In this document: one piece after another, positions 1,034 through 21,482 of the stretch
Numbering within the stretch: position 1 is the first letter of the stretch
How the letters are laid out: each line of letters starts with the position of its first letter
From: Hexactinellida sp. DTS-2022
Taxonomy: Eukaryota > Porifera > Hexactinellida
Length of the DNA stretch: 64,000 nt
Reading direction: 5' to 3'
NCBI GenBank assembly: GCA_028753945.1
Contig: JAPNXP010000005.1
Location: 2,108,001 to 2,172,000, forward strand
Notes under the pieces: generated by a model
The model's input: the letters and a program-made list of their open reading frames with translations, nothing else
Told to the model about the DNA's origin: nothing
Databases searched by the model: none
Translations under genes and position numbers: made by a program

Positions 1034-1905
1034 ACTTTATGCAATGTAACTCCGAAATATTAATATTCAACTTATTAATTTATGGTTAAACGTATTTATT
1101 ATACACTATGGACATTAACATCAATTTTTTCAGAATTCTGGACACCCTGCTATTCCGAATCCCGACCATTCTTTTAGGACGAAACCCTACCTAAGGCTAC
1201 CTTTACCCTCAGAAATACGGTACATTCATAACATCAATAGTTTACAACTTGTTGAATCAATAGTTTAAGTGTTAAACCAAAACATTTTATTGACAATTAT
1301 ACGAGTAGACGAGCCAATATATTGCATTGTAGATACATACATATCTATAAATGATGTATATCCTATTTAGTCATCCTTTTTAGTACCTTCATATAGTTCC
1401 AAATAATAGATAAACTTCATAATGTGACATTTAGATTCTCATACTACTATACTAGTATATAATTGTGTATTACGTACGTTTATGTCTAATCCCAGAAAAA
1501 TCCCGGCAAGCCGGGAATCCCGGAAAATCCCCTCCCGGCATGAAAATCATATCTCGGTCGATCCCTAAATCTAACAAACAGTATTACATTATACTACTCA
1601 CACACTGCTTGTGAACTCTTTGCCCTGGTCGTACTGGATAACATCAAGCACGGACTACTATATTATCGCGTGACAAAGCCAAACTAAAGTAAAAAATGCT
1701 TAGGCTGAACATTCTATGACTGAAAATATGGTCAATTCTGTATTTTTAGTCAATAAATTTGGTAACTAACACAATATTTGGGCGCTGAATTAAAAAATGA
1801 CAATTTCAAGGTTCAAAGACTCACTCCCCGTCCTAATTTTGGCAAAGAGGCGTAGTCACACCCAAATATGGTCAATTCCATATTTTTGTTCTATTACGTC
1901 ACCAT

Positions 1906-2062
1906 CATAGGCGTCTTAACCCGCCCGGATTCCCGGAAATGTTCGGGCGGCCCGGAAGGGTTTCCCCTATGCTGCTAATGCTATACCCCGGAGTTTACCC
2001 GGACATCACCCGGAATTTCCGGGCGGGCCGAAGAATAGACCTTTGCATTTACGACGCCTATG
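1906..2062. mobile_element. hAT-type MITE, 157 bp
   Basis: TIRs CATAGGCGTC / GACGCCTATG enclose CCCGGA/TCCGGG-rich subrepeats. Flanking 8-mers GTCACCAT (1898-1905) and GTCATCAT (2063-2070) form an 8-bp TSD with one mismatch. No coding capacity. Confidence 0.8.
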
Positions 2063-2222
2063 GTCATCATAAAACTAAATTCGCAATATCCTCTTAACTA
2101 GGAACGATATTGATGAAAATATTATTAATAAATTGTTCAGCTAAATATATATTGCCACGTGACCTTCGGTATGCAAGGCCTGACTTGCTAAGCGAAAATT
2201 TGTGTACCATGGATTAGTGCAT

Positions 2223-3209
2223 TGAAAAATGGAAAATTGATCTTTATTCCAATAATTAGCAATGATAGAGCTGAAAAGTGTATTATAACTATATAGGAAT
2301 ATGGTATCCAGGGGCCTTATTCACTAAACTTCTTGAACTTAGTTTGTGCTTAAACTAAGCGTAAACTTAGTTAGTGCTTAGTTTAAACTAAGTTTATGCA
2401 CAAACTAAGTCTGAAACTAAGTCGGTATTCACGAAGCAAAACTAAGTTCTAACTAAGTCTAAACTTAGTTTGAACTTAGTTTGTGCTTAGTTTTGAGATA
2501 AAACTTAGTTCTTGCTTAGTTTTCTGTTGAAAACTAAGCAAAAAGTTAAGTCTACTTCTTACCAGACTTAATTGAATATTTCACGATAATATACTTGTAT
2601 TTACAATATTTAATTTATTTACGAATTATATCTCGCATTCTTTGTAGTATACAAACATAAAATACTGTATTATTTCTTAAGTTGTTGTATTTTCAATCCT
2701 TCATTACACATTAATTCCATTTAATGTAATATGACGAAGTTCGTATATATTGGGCTGTGTTAACTCGATAAACTATCAACAATTAACTCATCTATACAAT
2801 CTATACAAAAGGAAAATTGTATTTATACGTATAACTTATCGTGGTTGTAATACTAATAGTCGTTGTATCACTCTGAGTTTAGTTTTGAGAAGTTAAGAAA
2901 ACATTGCAAAAAGTAAGTAATTACTTAGTTTAGACTAAGTTTAAGTTTGAGCAAAACTAAGTCAATACTTAGTTTAGAGAACTTTAGACTAAATTAAGTT
3001 TAAATTTAAGCAAAAACTAAGTTTAATCAAAAACTAAGTTTTTGGATAAGTTTTGAGAAGTTAAATAAACTTAGCATAAACTAAGTCAAGACTTAGTTTA
3101 GACTTAGTATAATCTAAGTTTAAGTTAAGTTTAAGTTTAAGAAATGTTAGTGAATAAGGCCCCAGGTATATATAGCACTCTCCAGAATTGTGATATGTCA
3201 TCATCTGAT
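2223..3209 (+). repeat. repeat copy split by the 2311-3163 insertion
   Basis: Positions 2223-2310 joined to 3164-3209 are the reverse complement of 3738-3873, at clearly high identity. The copy is split exactly at the TIR element. Confidence 0.8.
2311..3163. mobile_element. TIR element rich in AACTAAG/CTTAGTT repeats
   Basis: A perfect 17-bp TIR, GGGGCCTTATTCACTAA at 2311-2327 and its reverse complement at 3147-3163, bounds an element whose two flanks are filled with CTTAGTT- and AACTAAG-type repeats in both orientations. It is inserted inside one copy of a repeat whose other copy (3738-3873, inverted) is uninterrupted, which confirms both ends. The TSD is ambiguous because CCAGG borders the G-rich termini: CAG (3 bp) and CCAGG (5 bp) are both possible. 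A 3-bp TSD would suit a PIF/Harbinger-type element. No transposase is seen. Confidence 0.8.
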
Positions 3210-3737
3210 TACCTCTCTTTAATCTCTTTATTTGTTTTTGTTTTTTCTGTTCTTGTTTCTGCACTTTTTTAAAAATGTACTTTCCTGACGGTGTGGTCAG
3301 GGTTACGGAAGGCTTACGCTGCCTGTACCATAAATGGCCCCCGTCTACAATTAAACTTCAACTTCAACTTCAATATTTGAGATAATGAGATAATTAACAC
3401 TTAATTCATTATTAAGTAATGACTCAAGATTATTGAAGTTAGCCATAGAAAATGTATTATCGATGGATAGGAAGTTACCTATTCCGGAGAGATCAATACC
3501 AGCCTAGTTTACATAACATTCATAGTTTTTGAGTCATGTCACATTTTAGGAAATATACAATTTCCATGGCAACCGTAGAATGTGTCGACATTCCATTTAT
3601 AATTTCGATATATTTTATTCAACTAATTCTGAGTATAACCAACCATGTTCCAATTTTGAACATTTATAACGCGTTTAACTATGTAAAAAGTATGCTAGAA
3701 AAACAAGATAATTTGCAACCAAAATAACCATAACGTC

Positions 3738-14081: not shown

Positions 14082-14208
14082 ACCTAAATAGGAAATAGTT
14101 CGAATTTTTCAGTGTTGCTGCACCATGGATATGGGGAAATCCCGGCTTGAATCCATGGTCCAACAATACAAAAATGAAAGTCGAACTATTTCCTATTTTG
14201 AATTCTAA
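14082..14208. repeat. inverted repeat, about 127 bp
   Basis: AAATAGGAAATAGTTCGAA and TTCGACTTTCATT..GAACTATTTCCTATTT form imperfect arms that continue inward through CACCATGGAT / ATCCATGGT. Likely a small MITE. No TSD was identified. Confidence 0.65.
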
Positions 14209-14388
14209 ATTCCCGAAAGTTCCCGATAATTTAGTTTAGTTACCTCGAACTTAATTTGTCACTAGAAATATTTACAAATTTCAAATTATAAGTTGTATGT
14301 AACATTGTGGTTGCTTAGCTGAATTATGAAAAAACATCTAATTTAATCAACAATTAGTAGGTAATGTATTTTAATGCTTATTTAGAAT

Positions 14389-16486
14389 ATGAACAACTCT
14401 GAAGCTTTTCAGTTTTTGTGCGAACACAGAACACATAGTTCCCGCTCGATTGCCGACCAATTTATTTCATCTTTCGGCTTCGAACGAAATGATTGAATTT
14501 CTTCCGTTTGAAGTTTACTGAGATTCAGAAAAAGAGGGACTTATTCCAAAAGAACTTGGACATTGATACTTGGAATTCTATGTATTTTGTCATATTCCGA
14601 AGAGGCCTAAGTTGAGCACCACTTCTACCATAAGCTTTGAAGAAGACCTCAATGTAATCAAAAGAAAAGCGATTGATGATCTAACCACTAAAGCGTTGAA
14701 GAATCGTCTCTATTCCCTCAAATCGCATCTAAATACTGTTGCTCAGAACGAAGGTGTATCTCCTAAGACACCTACTACTTATCTCTTATTACTTTGCTCT
14801 AATGAGGACCTCGACTTTAGTAGTGCTAAGGTTTGCAAAGAGATAATCGATAAGGGAAATTATTCTAATATGTGCCCACAATTATCGTTGGATAAATCCG
14901 CGTTTCTTATTGACTCCCTTGAGATTGGCAAAAGTAAGTATATATAACTCCGACGTACTTTGGTCTCAGATGATCTCAAATTACCAGGATATAATAGAGT
15001 AGCTGTTCATAGGTCTCAAAAAAACTTGGTTGATGAGGTGCGGCTGATTCATAGGGAATTTCCGATTGGAGTAGGGATTTCTTACACAAAACTACTCTCC
15101 CATACTGTTGAGCGAATTGTAATGAACTTAAGTGTTGGTAATCAAGACTTTCCTCTCAAAGTTAAAATGTCCGATGGCCTAGATGGATCAGGGTGTCATC
15201 GAGTGTATCAACAAGCAAGAAGTTATCCTGAGCTCTCAAAGTCATTTTTGTTATTTGGGTTTAAAATTAACGCCATCTAAATGCAAACAACAATATTCTG
15301 TGGAAACCAAATAAACCAAATTCACCATATTCTACTAGACCTGTTGCTATTTTAGCCATTCCGGAGAATGAAGAAAATGTGAAGTTTTTGATGGAATCAC
15401 TAATAAATCAAGAAACTTTAGCGATTGAAGAAAGTGGGTTGTGTTTACAGAATGGTCATGCCGAGGTTAAGATAATTCGTTCTCATTTCGATACGAAGAT
15501 GGCAAAAATCTTAAGCGGCGCTGGTGGAGCAAGTTGCCAATTATGTACTTCGTCAATCGCTCAAATACATGATATTAGTTTTGTTAAAACTGGCTATCCT
15601 GTGAATAGGACAATTCATGATGTTCTTGCTTTATTTGAGGAGGTTGATGAGGATGAATTTTTGTCTTTGCCATCAAATCACAGATTCAATTTAACTCGCA
15701 TGCCAATCTCAGATAAAGATATAGTTTCAGCTTCTCCTCTACATGCTTATTTGAGAACTTTCAGCTGGTTCTTATTATTCATCTCCCATTTACAGTGTGG
15801 TGCTAAAAAATGGTCACCGACTTCGTTAAAAATTGCGTGCTAAGAAGTTTATACCAACTTAATCGAAGAAAAGATAAATATATCGATTGACGCACCATCA
15901 GTCCAGGGTGGAACTTCAACAACAGGAAATGTTGTTCGGTTGTGTTTCACACGTAAGGATGATTCGGTCAAAGATTTTCTTTATTGTGTTTTGACAGTTA
16001 TCCCCCAAGAAAATCATCAAAATATCACTAAAAATTTTAATAATTTCGGTGTAACTTTAAGGCTATACAATGGCAATAGGAAAATAGACACTGAAGGCCT
16101 TGACAATGTATGCCGAGAGACATACTGTATGAATCAATTTTGATAAATTTTTCATGGGCACACGTAACCCCAACATTACATAAACTTCTAGCACATGCAG
16201 CTCAAATCATTCAGATCACAATGATTGTTATGGGTTGGAAAATTTATCAATGGAAGGGTTAGAAGCTTGTAATAAGCTTGTGAGACGATACCGCGAGAGG
16301 TTGTCTAGGAAATTTAGCTTTGAAGATAATTTCAGAGATGTATTCATCAGGCTTACTTCCGATAGCGATCCTATTTTGTCTTCATTTCGTAATAATACGA
16401 AAGAAGTGTTGGAGGTAGATGTATCGGAGCTAAAGAGCGATCAAGACATTCTCGTAAATTCACTTATTATTGAAAATCTTCCGTAA
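14389..16486 (+). pseudogene. RAG1-like (RAG1/Transib superfamily) transposase, decayed
   Basis: Consecutive open blocks on the + strand match the RAG1 catalytic core in order. KMSDGLDGSG (about 15165-15195) sits at the first catalytic Asp region. KPNS...PVAILAIPENEE and ILSGAGGASCQLC (about 15510-15550) follow, the last giving the Cys-x2-Cys of the zinc-binding site. Then come PISDKDI...SPLHAYLRTF, STTGNVVRLCF, LHKLLAHAAQII (16175-16215, the His pair of the zinc site) and SMEGLEACNKLVRRYRE (16248-16290), which aligns with the last catalytic Glu. The second Asp is uncertain. RAG1/Transib proteins are DDE transposases, and RAG1 is the V(D)J recombinase. Lesions: a stop near 14491, a frameshift near 15285, a stop at 15841-15843 and a frame change between 16143 and 16235. 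Positions 14934-14969 (GTAAGT...CAG, 36 bp, contains a stop, frame-preserving) may be a tiny intron. There is no RING finger, and no CACTATG-type terminal repeats were found. Confidence 0.78.
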
Positions 16487-16968
16487 TTGATATCAAAAAA
16501 GTTCTTTTTCCTCAAGAATTTGTACATAAATTAGGAAATTTAGATAATAAGGCTAGTATAGATATAATGTTCAATTGTATAAACTTTCTAATTACAGATT
16601 GGGGTAACTAAGTGAGTTAATTAAAATTCTTAAAAAATGTGACAATGACGTCACAACTCTCACACCTGAAGCCAGGCTTTTATAATTCCCGCTACTATAT
16701 TTTGTTAGAGCTCGTTCAGTTTTAATTTTGTACGCCTAGATTAGTCATCTTGTATTAAGTCTATGGCAGCATCTCTCGATATTGTAGGCCTAGAATCCAT
16801 TTTTACGCCTGGATAAAAATCTTGCCAAATGTCTCTCCTTTAGGCGCGCCCAGCTCGCCTAGATAACACCCTACCTTAAGCCATTCAAAAAATCTAATTA
16901 TACCAATCGATTCTATGGATACGATTTCCCATATGTAAATAATATAGTTTAATGCCCTATCTCATACC
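16487..16968. other. non-coding stretch downstream of the RAG1-like gene
   Basis: No gene seen. Positions 16730-16875 contain several TAGGCG/CGCCTA-type motifs, loosely like 51460-51600, suggesting a degraded dispersed repeat. Confidence 0.4.
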
Positions 16969-18300
16969 CAGGGCCGGATTAGCGTATACGCCAAATACGC
17001 CTGGGCGTAGGGCCCCGTTCACTTGGGGGCCCATATATATCTCTGTAAGTGCAAGGCCGGGGCCCGTTCAGAATGGTCATGAGTTGTGACCACTTCAAAT
17101 ATCGTGGGGCCTAACTCTATGCAAGTATATACTGTGCACCGATAATATTTGTTGACACAAATTGAACAATAATTATATGTACTTTGTCATGCTAATGCTA
17201 TGGTTGTAGGCAAATATAACCAATAATTAGCTCATCTTAAGTGATACTTTGTTATTCATTTGTTACGACTAGATTGGGATTCGTCACCCCTAAGCAATAG
17301 GTTATTTAGATTGTATATAAATGATACTACAAGTTACATTAAGCATCACACATTCCTGACTTAATTAAATTCACGCATTTATTACTTGCATTCCGAGTCT
17401 TTACTCAATTACGCAATAACAAAGCAAGTATACCATGCCTACTAAACCAAAAGGTGGAGCTGAGAAGCGTAAGATTAAGGAAGAGAAAGAAAAAATATTT
17501 CTAAAGCAATTATTTTCCTTCTGCCTACTTTAGTCTGATTATTCAGAATTTTTTGACACTACAATTTGACTCATAGTAAAGACGAACACTCATTTTCAAA
17601 ATTGACAAAAGTCATTTAAGAACATGGGCAAAATAGCTTAAATGCACATGTCAGCACGTTGTCTTTCGGAAGTACCATTAACAAGCTTTCTTGTTTAAAA
17701 TCACGCAAAAAACTTATGTGATATTTAATGGGTCCTAATTATCGTTCTATCAAATTTAGTTAAAAGTCTAACAAAATTCGTTCTACCTTTAACAAAAGTT
17801 GTGAAATGTCTAACAGATTTGCCATTACCAAAATTACTAGAAAGTTTATCAAAATCAATGAGGGGTCTAACAAAATTAGTGAAAAGTCTAACAAAATTAA
17901 TGAAAAGTCTAACAAAATTAATGAAAAGTACAAAATTACTGATGCAGCTACTGCTCTAATTAACCTAATCCTGCAATTAATGAAAAGTATTTCAGTAATT
18001 TTGTTAGACTTTTCAATGATTCTGTTAGACTTTTCAGTGATTTTGTTAGACTTTTTAGTAATTTTGGTAATGGAAAATCTGTTAGACATTTCACAAATTT
18101 TGTTAGAGGTATAACGAATTTTGGTAGACTTTTAATCAAATTTGTTAGACCGATAATTATAACCGATATGTAATTAACAAAATATAACTTCTGTTTTACA
18201 TTAATTTTCTGTAATTAGTTATGATTACTATACCACTTCATAAATATGGGGCCAAATTTCCTCTTGGCGTAGGGCCACTGCTGTGTTTAATCCGGCCATG
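16969..18300. mobile_element. hAT derivative, 1332 bp, exact 8-bp TSD
   Basis: Left terminus CAGGGCCGGATTAG, right terminus TTTAATCCGGCCATG. CTCATACC flanks both sides exactly (16961-16968 and 18301-18308). Inside, 17435-17500 reads MPTKPKGGAEKRKIKEEKEK, which resembles the basic N-terminus of hAT/ZMYM-type transposases, so this is probably a deletion derivative that kept its first exon. The rest of the transposase is absent. The interior also holds an unusual tandem palindrome (17760-18140). It shares its ends with the element at 51818-53386. Confidence 0.9.
17760..18140. repeat. tandem-repeat palindrome (GTCTAACAAAATTARTGAAAA units)
   Basis: The left half holds about six tandem copies of a 20-22 bp unit GTCTAACAAAATTAGTGAAAA. 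The right half holds the same unit inverted (TTTTCA..AATTTTGTTAGAC). The halves mirror each other around about 17950-17990. The long open frames on both strands are by-products of this repeat and not genes. Confidence 0.85.
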
Positions 18301-18505
18301 CTCATACCTAAATAGCTACTTCCAGGATTTGACCATTTCGTGACACTGTGGATGGTTACTTACAAGTTTTTTTTCAGGCGCCTTGCCGGCACGAGTTAAC
18401 AGGTTGCGTTGATTTTGTGTTCAGCGATTATACGCTCCCTTTATCGTTCTTTAGACTTTAAAATACATCAGAACCTCGTTAATACGAACACTATTTCAGT
18501 CATTG

Positions 18506-19619: not shown

Positions 19620-19869
19620 TATATCTAGGTATTAATTTTGATGAGAGCAGGGGTTTATCCAGAAATTTCTTGGCCAACAAATCTTGCCAAACACCCGGAT
19701 TCGGAACCTAATTAAGAGCCACACTGTAACCAACCTCTCAAACGATGCTGGGCCCTTTAGGTGCTGACAGGCACCTAGGTAAACCCTGGATGAGAGAGTA
19801 CAGTAACAATTCATTTGGATAAGCATAGAGAATATATGAACTACACATAACTTTGGAGCAATGCAAATA

Positions 19870-19952
19870 CAGGTAAACCTCCCAAAGCGGCACCTCCGAG
19901 TAGCGGCACAAAATCATTCTCCCGATGGGTGCAGCTTTGGGAGGTTTACCTG
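19870..19952. mobile_element. palindromic MITE, 83 bp, TA TSD
   Basis: CAGGTAAACCTCCCAAAGCGGC pairs with its near-perfect inverted copy GCAGCTTTGGGAGGTTTACCTG. TA flanks both ends. Confidence 0.88.
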
Positions 19953-20007
19953 TATACTAATGGAATAAAGTTAAATCATTATTATAATATCATACAGAAT
20001 ACTTGCT

Positions 20008-20922
20008 TTAGACTACAGGGTATTGATTTCTAAATTCTATTACTAAATTATTGAAAATGTTTTCATTCTGCCTCTTCTTCCAACAATATTCGGCTAAGTA
20101 GGTATCCAGTAATTCAGGATTGGTTGTCATAGAATTCCTCATTTTCTTCTTAGCCTGTCCCCAGGTACTCTCAATCGTTTGAGTATGTATATCTGTCCCC
20201 GGAACTACGAAATGGATGCTATGGTTCACCGTCAAATGAGTAAAGTTAGCTGGAGGAATTAGATTATATGATGCCCATTCATCACTTAAGATTGTTGTTC
20301 CTGGTTTTATATACCGCTCAATTATGGGAATCAAGGTAGCAGCTGATCGATCATCCACTGAAATCATAAAAGCCTCTTTGGAATCTCTGTCAATTCCTCC
20401 AAAGACCCATTTTCCAGATAGTTGTCTACCACGATGGTATTTCCTCCTTCTGAATTTGCTTTCATCAATCTCTACTATATGTCCAGGACCACCAATTAGT
20501 TCTGGGTTAGCGAGGTATCTTTCAACACAGAGATCACGTAAGAAATTTTTCCAATCGGTGATGGTAGCTGTTGCCCATCCCAAATTCTTGTGTAAAAATT
20601 TGGTGTCTTGTAGGCCTTCTGCCCAAAAATATAAAAACTCTACAAGTTCTGTTAATGACAAGTTTGATCCTTCAAAAAATGATCCTACGCGTCGATGTGC
20701 AAACTTTTCGCAGTTTTTCTTAGGACATCTCCAGCCCACCCCATCAATGACTTTTGTGAAAATTCCCTCGCGCATATCTGTGCCGCACTTACAAATCATA
20801 CCTCTCGCTAAGAGTCCGTGAACTCTCAGCCAATCGGTACACGTATCTTCATTGATAGTGATTTGTGAGAATAGTTCCTTCAAGTTCACTTCCTCAATGT
20901 ATGGAAAAGTAGAGGGTAACAT
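20008..20922 (-). CDS. Merlin transposase (ISXO2-like DDE), intact
   Basis: Uninterrupted 304-codon frame starting at an ATG and ending in TAG. A zinc-ribbon-like region (CKCGTDM around residue 44, WRCPKKNC around residue 64) is followed by a helical region and the DDE catalytic core: VEIDESKF (first Asp, about residue 149), LSDEWASY (second Asp, about 214) and TQTIESTWG (Glu, about 249). The layout is that of ISXO2/IS1595-type transposases, which move Merlin elements by cut-and-paste. The length is typical for the family. The gene sits between matching 435-bp TIRs within an element that has a near-exact TSD. The reading frame is intact although two younger hAT elements sit beside it, so the source may have been active recently. 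No introns are needed. Whether it is expressed cannot be told. Confidence 0.9.
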   Translation of the reverse strand: MLPSTFPYIEEVNLKELFSQITINEDTCTDWLRVHGLLARGMICKCGTDMREGIFTKVIDGVGWRCPKKNCEKFAHRRVGSFFEGSNLSLTELVEFLYFWAEGLQDTKFLHKNLGWATATITDWKNFLRDLCVERYLANPELIGGPGHIVEIDESKFRRRKYHRGRQLSGKWVFGGIDRDSKEAFMISVDDRSAATLIPIIERYIKPGTTILSDEWASYNLIPPANFTHLTVNHSIHFVVPGTDIHTQTIESTWGQAKKKMRNSMTTNPELLDTYLAEYCWKKRQNENIFNNLVIEFRNQYPVV

Positions 20923-21482
20923 AATTGGGATAAAGAGAGGGTAGAGGGTAACATAATTGGGATCGCCATAATAAAGTGAAGAGATTCAAGTTGTCTAGTC
21001 GAGTACAAAAGTATATTTTAGGTAATACATTTTTTTAATTTATAGCAAATATGATAACATAAATTGGCTTTAAATATTGTGCATGAATGAAAATGCTATT
21101 TGTGAAGTATAAACTACTAATTTTAGTTAATGGATGAGCTAACTTTCACAATGTTCCTTTAACTATATAATTTCAATAGCATGCTGCATTATAATTCATT
21201 CAAAAAGTCTAATTACATGGCTATAGATTGTTTTCACACATAAGTTAATATGGTAGGGATTTATATTTACAAGTTGTATGGATCATTGCATACATAATTG
21301 TACAATATAAGTTTGCTCTAATAACCATATCTAAGTGTTTAATTGGAAACTTTAAAATTATTTTCTGTCAAAATTGATGTGATTTGAGTTAAGAAGTTTT
21401 TAAAAATATCCTATTCGCATTGGTTAGGGCAATCTTGATCCTTTAAAATATGAAAGCTCACCAATAATATATCTGTAAATAC

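Follow-up and report, generated by a model that had tools for sequence, protein, structure and literature searches.

What kind of transposon left behind, in sponge DNA, a broken gene that reads piece by piece like the core of RAG1? The question is raised by a window of 64,000 nucleotides from Hexactinellida sp. DTS-2022 (assembly GCA_028753945.1, contig JAPNXP010000005.1, forward strand, positions 2,108,001 to 2,172,000); coordinates are positions in this window unless stated otherwise, and L-numbers denote loci of the same genome. Positions 14389–16486 hold a frame-broken transposase of the RAG1/Transib type, which is very probably the dead remnant of a cut-and-paste element of the Transib type, whose family is abundant and recently active in this glass-sponge-like genome. 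The dead copy is ordinary; the family is unusual.

The open reading frame (ORF) list splits the reading frame into 14567–14947, 14948–15280, 15271–15843, 15844–16143, and 16184–16486. The RAG1-core blocks named by the first-pass annotation of this DNA do follow one another in order, all on the plus strand and spread over three frames, and the Cys pair, the His pair, and the last Glu, described there as placed as in RAG1, align with residues of RAG1, the RAG1-like proteins (RAG1L), and Transib. An intact relative of 719 residues from the same genome, L007, matches four of the window pieces at 55–59% identity (E value printed as 0.0), a similarity that is far beyond chance and that bears out the call of an invertebrate RAG1/Transib-type transposase fossil. 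The word “fossil” suits the window copy and not the family, which has intact and recently moved copies elsewhere in the genome. The annotation had also suspected a displaced second catalytic Asp. Displacement was ruled out: RSHFDTKM aligns with the Asp-x-Lys found just before CxxC in Transib, RAG1L, and RAG1, and the region ISDKDI...SPLHAYLRTF is part of the zinc-binding segment. We take D283, D386, and E643 of L007 to be the counterparts of RAG1 D600, D708, and E962. With a RAG1-type DDE core and the zinc residues CxxC and HxxxxH, the locus belongs to the RAG1/Transib superfamily. Searched alone, the window copy finds HzTransib as its best match in the PDB (a 190-residue piece, E 0.11), and its five ORF pieces find nothing above cut-off in Pfam; by tblastn, it matches an HzTransib-like protein at E 1.4e-7, RAG1 at 0.009, and RAG1L at 0.022. 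In Pfam, the intact relatives L007, L008, L021, and L040 score above the RAG1 cut-off; in one alignment, a match at E ≤ 0.001 is obtained for 8 of 10 members.

The sponge protein fits neither the bilaterian type of RAG1L nor the insect type of Transib. It retains the long zinc-domain segment of RAG1L and, in some lineages, a CCHC tail; its other motifs are those of Transib. The spacing from CxxC to LH is 64–68 residues in all 23 sponge rows (19 distinct places), 64–67 in 46 of the 59 database relatives (those with the motif found), 61–68 in 42 of 51 RAG1 and RAG1L proteins, and 27–32 in 109 of 120 proteins gathered by the Transib search. GTT..GN-type and SDP motifs are common to the sponge proteins and Transib and are not shared with RAG1L. 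Since each of 15 elements bounded by terminal inverted repeats (TIRs) holds one gene, the family is by architecture a Transib. Its features appear Subgroup I-like in the sense of Tao et al. 2022 (PMC9435367), whose main text describes Subgroup I Transibs as having asymmetric ends, α11–12 helices of the RAG2-binding type in the zinc domain, no RAG2-like gene (RAG2L), and a type-I CCHC tail, the last being present in some sponge copies. The long sponge segment is the putative equivalent of α11–12. The likeness is drawn from these described features rather than from Subgroup I sequences, and the sponge family differs in its glass-sponge-like host, in the CACAGTG ends of its bounded copies, and in the loss of the tail in the lineage of the window copy.

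In profile comparisons, the sponge proteins score 412 with Transib, 183 with RAG1L, and 91 with RAG1, and Transib scores 129 with RAG1L and 63 with RAG1, the RAG1 profile being a narrow one. The claim that this copy resembles RAG1 more than classical Transib thus stands insofar as the sponge profile outscores that of Transib against both RAG1L and RAG1, and fails insofar as its own best partner is Transib. Similarly, phmmer gives the sponge protein 84.8 bits with HzTransib, 37.7 with BbRAG1L, and 27 with RAG1. Fold comparisons of predicted structures with vertebrate RAG1, at 16–19% identity, suggest a common core fold that includes the nonamer-binding domain region. In an unrooted tree of 48 chosen rows, comprising sponge, Transib-search (the named ones insects), RAG1L, and RAG1 proteins, 21 of 22 sponge rows form a third clade (100/100), and L040 is a long branch of unsure placement. 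The sponge clade lies outside the canonical, insect-type Transib clade, as the annotation would have had it, and outside the clade of RAG1 and RAG1L as well (each 100/100). The order in which the clades arose cannot be read from an unrooted tree.

It is improbable that the family is a plain insect-type (Subgroup II) Transib with a superficial likeness to RAG1, even though the closest solved structure and the closest profile are both Transib and the elements carry a single gene and a 5-bp target duplication. HzTransib and the insect Transibs (PDB 6pqn family) share with the sponge elements this one-gene layout, the DDE core, the GTT..GN and SDP motifs, and the 5-bp duplication, but the Transib-search proteins have neither the long zinc segment nor the CCHC tail (0 of 120), and the sponge clade falls outside theirs. 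The ends of HzTransib, moreover, are described in part of the text of PMC8289069 as symmetric, unlike those of the sponge family.

Still less likely is a true RAGL transposon, or a RAG1L gene, of the kind found in amphioxus and molluscs, with its RAG2L partner lost or yet to show. The RAG1L-length zinc segment, the CCHC tail of some lineages, and the profile scores against RAG1L and RAG1 would suit it, and ProtoRAG and RAG1L transposons (PDB 6b40) resemble the sponge elements in segment length, tail, and asymmetric ends. The RAG1L proteins of molluscs, acorn worm, and sea star, however, are 44–51% identical to amphioxus RAG1L, whereas the best of the 71 matches of a mollusc RAG1L in this genome, L040, reaches 25% (E 3.2e-21), with 40% over a single 107-residue stretch; many of the places listed among these are also matched by the 190-residue window piece. 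The Transib-shared GTT..GN and SDP motifs and the position outside the RAG1 and RAG1L clade also argue against it. ProtoRAG and RAG1L transposons carry RAG2L, and ProtoRAG begins with CACTATG (passages of PMC8289069). An adjacent RAG2-like gene, raised by the annotation, is absent between the ends of all 15 bounded elements, which hold no non-transposase frame of more than 150 residues; a Pfam RAG2 search of the genome found no match, but its controls were equally silent, so it carries no weight.

Several observations weigh against the assignment to a Subgroup I-like Transib with RAG1L-type parts. The CCHC tail, sought with a strict pattern, occurs in 10 of the 23 sponge rows, or 7 of 19 distinct places, and is missing from the lineage to which the window copy belongs; in two rows the sequence stops before or beside the tail region, and the pattern overlooked a shorter version of the tail in L022. 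Of the intact copies, L021 has the tail and L007 lacks it. The same pattern finds the tail in 7 of the 59 database relatives, 16 of the 51 RAG1 and RAG1L proteins, and none of the 120 Transib-search proteins, many of the proteins in these three sets being partial. L018 falls below the Pfam RAG1 cut-off (20.1 bits). The N-terminal profile of the sponge proteins does not match those of RAG1L (0.17% probability) and RAG1 (0.10%), and that of Transib matches the RAG1L N-terminus at 81.9%; the nonamer-binding-like domain, at about residues 90–163 of L021, is backed by predicted fold only. The tree program warns that long branches meet, and because the tree has neither an outgroup nor Subgroup I references, kinship with Subgroup I rests on features.

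The genome holds many members of the family. One 190-residue window piece finds at least 152 matches, and at least 13 places, among the matches listed, combine a stop-to-stop frame of 700 residues or more with a match free of stops. Intact copies encode a single RAG1-like DDE transposase of ~710 residues. Long frames were found in 17 (L009–L025) of 20 loci taken, and the 15 TIR-bounded elements measure 2.9–4.2 kb. Five pairs of elements at different places are 98.8–99.8% identical over ~2.8–3.7 kb (one pair aligned in three pieces, another with an interrupted 3′ end). A 121-base 3′ end from the subfamily of the window copy finds 40 matching places (83–100% identity), and non-autonomous copies are likely to be among them. 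That the family is a domesticated host gene is scarcely credible. In favour of this is the strong protein constraint seen between families (proportions of nonsynonymous differences, pN, of 0.20–0.33 and of synonymous differences, pS, of 0.79–0.84 in six pairs); against it stand the number of matches, the terminal repeats and their target duplications, the near-identity of copies inserted at separate sites, and a ratio of nonsynonymous to synonymous rates (dN/dS) of 0.55–0.68 in four recent pairs, relaxed after insertion. This is the pattern of a transposon whose protein stays functional as the element spreads and degenerates once a copy has been inserted. Some of the 40 places matched by the 3′ end seem to have no transposase match nearby.

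The window copy has a twin, L002 (C14:2180145-2183714), in the opposite orientation, the 3′ ends of the two lying ~54 kb apart. Over 2120 columns of the coding part, a single internal 1-base indel sets them apart and there are no substitutions; they share frame lesions that are not in five other relatives, and one further gap is shared by both and L026. L002 has complete ends, flanked by one copy of the TATGG duplication on each side. Origin by segmental duplication was rejected on two grounds: the flanks differ on the 3′ side, and L002 carries a TATGG/TATGG duplication of its own. An element that was already dead has probably been copied or relocated in recent time, and transposase supplied by intact copies would be the simplest agent: the twin shares the lesions yet has a duplication of its own, which argues for movement in trans. 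As a point on the other side, gene conversion could account for the likeness of the twins.

The annotation expected CACTATG-type ends flanked by 5-bp duplications. Instead, 15 of 17 loci begin and end with CACAGTG, the heptamer consensus of the vertebrate recombination signal sequence (RSS), and the duplications are perfect in 13 of the 17 and match at 4 of 5 bases in L009. These heptamer counts are not independent because the guided scans sought CACAGTG (one mismatch allowed in the 17-locus scan, exact in a 16-row pass); in the heptamer-naive scan, the uninformed one, which asked for the same 5 bp outside similar ends, the CACAGTG pair ranks first in 8 of 17 loci and second or third in 3 more. 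The elements thus have the heptamer ends starting with CAC and the 5-bp target duplication of Transib. The window copy itself retains only its 3′ end.

The two ends are unequal. Twelve families were compared, one locus each, after L011, L015, L021, and L025, with near-identical ends, were dropped from 16; for the window's own family, the 5′ end was taken from L026 and the 3′ end from a relative. The best non-zero offset of the inner match between the ends is +9 or +10 in 11 of the 12, the block lying deeper at the 3′ end, and when the 3′ interior is shuffled, at most 5 of 12 families give these offsets in 300 trials. The inner block varies among families (for example, TCGAATAGG, GGTCGATTAG, and GGAAGTAG): between the two ends of one family it matches at a mean of 10.3 of 14 bases, against 7.1 across families, a within-family sum reached by none of 20000 permutations. 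Around positions 28–37, the 5′ ends tend to be rich in A or T. Some results tell against this picture of the ends. L025 has no duplication, L016 and L019 have no end pair, and L018 lacks the +9/10 offset; in a first pass that allowed offset zero, 9 or 10 was best or tied best in 12 of 16 rows. Family-specific matching extends to the six bases that follow the heptamer, of which 4.5 agree within a family and 1.8 between families, so that family-specific ends in general, and not something special to the inner block, are indicated.

Unequal spacing has precedents. Spacings of 12/23 in the RSS and 27/31 in ProtoRAG are given in part of PMC8289069 and of 4/13, a difference of 9, for AanRAGL in the main text of PMC9435367, and passages of PMC8355894 report 12/23 in some fly and mosquito Transibs, some with RSS-identical sequences; asymmetric Transib ends are therefore already in print. 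Vertebrate RAG1 and its 12/23 RSS resemble the sponge system in core fold, heptamer, and a two-part signal of unequal spacing, but the sponge elements have no RAG2, their spacing difference is 9–10 rather than 11, and their inner block is not an A-rich nonamer.

In the mechanism that we propose, a transposase dimer would bind both CACAGTG ends through its core, and the inner block would be bound by the nonamer-binding-like domain, the CCHC tail, or both. As the block sits 9–10 bp, about one helical turn, deeper at the 3′ end, a 5′ end would pair with a 3′ end, and the enzyme may prefer such asymmetric pairs. By analogy with RAG and Transib, nicking and hairpin formation would cleave at CAC, and insertion would produce the 5-bp duplication. 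Copies that are dead but still have intact ends, the twin of the window copy among them, would be moved in trans.

Tentatively, and with the balance of our judgment somewhat on the side of doubt, we suggest that a RAG1-type transposase lacking RAG2, in an early-branching animal, already uses an end pair of two parts and unequal spacing, CACAGTG plus an inner block offset by one helical turn, each transposase behaving as if it read its own version of the block. If so, a pairing rule like 12/23 would predate RAG2 rather than having been invented by the vertebrate immune system. The origin of the paired 12/23 V(D)J signals is treated as an open question, argued from few elements, in the consulted parts of PMC8355894, PMC8289069, and PMC9435367. 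The sponge family offers many intact copies in what is probably one of the earliest animal branches, bounded elements with no RAG2, a canonical heptamer and retained RAG1L-like parts, and twelve natural variants of the unequal end pair to compare, and one protein with two short DNAs would be enough to test how old the asymmetry is. For its part, the window copy is merely a broken member of this family.

A search of 5.8 billion proteins returned the 59 relatives, of which those with a named source all come from the glass sponge Oopsacas minuta, several auto-named “V(D)J recombination-activating protein”. Within the tree, L009 forms a pair with an Oopsacas protein (100/100), and L012 and L013 group with a second one (93/89). 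By themselves, these transposon proteins make a hexactinellid host probable, but transposons are able to pass from one host to another. Literature searches of titles and abstract starts found no report of such Transib or RAG1-like elements in sponges. The words “sponge” and “porifera” are absent from the main text of Tao et al. (PMC9435367), whose supplement covers hundreds of metazoan Transibs; “Transib” and “RAG1” are absent from the text seen of the Oopsacas genome paper, which gives 15.44% DNA transposons, and from that of the Aphrocallistes paper. Tao et al. (PMC9435367) use bacterial Transibs as the root of their tree, and one of the species that they name is Candidatus Thioglobus. Two scans of prokaryote genomes, with two and three short patterns, bore on whether such bacterial records could be sponge DNA; the patterns matched 18 and 117 times, tblastn found no relative, and the outcome neither supports nor refutes the idea.

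The features of the window copy are collected in Table 1. The element overshoots the annotated transposase at both ends when compared by blastn with seven relatives: similarity sets in at 14186–14201 in five and at 14350 and 14948 in the other two, and the outer 3′ pieces, after two gaps, are present in five of the seven. Judged from L002, ~480 bp of the 5′ end, including the 5′ terminal repeat, are gone; this part is still present in L002 and L026.

Table 1. Coordinates of the window copy, its motifs, and the sequences inserted in it
Feature	Position	Strand	Basis
Transposon remains	14201..18350	+	body 14201–16674, ~16873–16968, 18301–18350; blastn against relatives
Transposase pseudogene	14389..16486	+	stops and frame changes; ORF list, three-frame motifs, homology to intact 719-residue L007
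MNNSEAF	14389–14409	+	motif position
KMSDGLDGSG, first catalytic Asp (LDG, Asp 15182–15184)	15164..15193	+	invariant D283 of L007
RSHFDTKM, second catalytic Asp (FDTK, Asp 15490–15492)	15478..15501	+	D386 of L007, nearly invariant; D-x-K alignment
ASCQLC, zinc-binding Cys pair CxxC	15529..15546	+	invariant C401/C404 of L007
Long zinc-domain segment, RAG1L length	15547..15762	+	CxxC-to-LH spacing; not in Transib-search proteins
ISDKDI	15706–15723	+	motif position
SPLHAYLRTF	15733–15762	+	motif position
Zinc-binding His pair LHKLLAHAAQII	16176..16211	+	invariant H615, K616, H620 of L007
SMEGLEACNKLVRRYR, catalytic Glu block (GLE, Glu 16262–16264)	16247..16294	+	invariant E643 of L007
Short insertion, ~198 bp	16675..16872 (edges approximate)		alignment gap; not in twin L002
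1.33-kb insertion	16969..18300		8-bp duplication CTCATACC (16961–16968 / 18301–18308), CAGGGCCGGATTA-type ends
3′ terminal repeat	18301..18350	+	minus-strand heptamer CACAGTG at 18350–18344, then internal block CCTGGAAGTAG

Position 18350 is the final base of the element before the flank. The sequence AAGCCA was read by eye at either edge of the ~198-bp insertion. The 1.33-kb insertion is presumably hAT-like, judged by its hallmarks; inside it are 178-nt inverted arms (17728–17905 / 17990–18167, 87%) with repeats at 21-nt spacing. An imperfect palindrome at 14086–14198 (75%, ~120 columns), one arm of which is GGAAATAG and the other its complement, adjoins the breakpoint where the 5′ part of the element was lost.

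The divergent locus L040 (G000:C2:3226500-3231500, 1222–3312, plus strand) encodes a RAG1-type transposase of 696 residues, which at 37 bits is the best Pfam RAG1 match scanned apart from RAG1L itself and also has a weak DUF1280 match; terminal repeats were looked for at this locus and none were found. Further along the window, a short repeat at 19867–19959 is shared with the loci of L009 and L018. On the minus strand, 20008–20985 is a frame of 325 residues with a DDE domain of the ISXO2/IS1595 type (PF12762, E 1.6e-17), which we assume may belong to a Merlin-type transposon.
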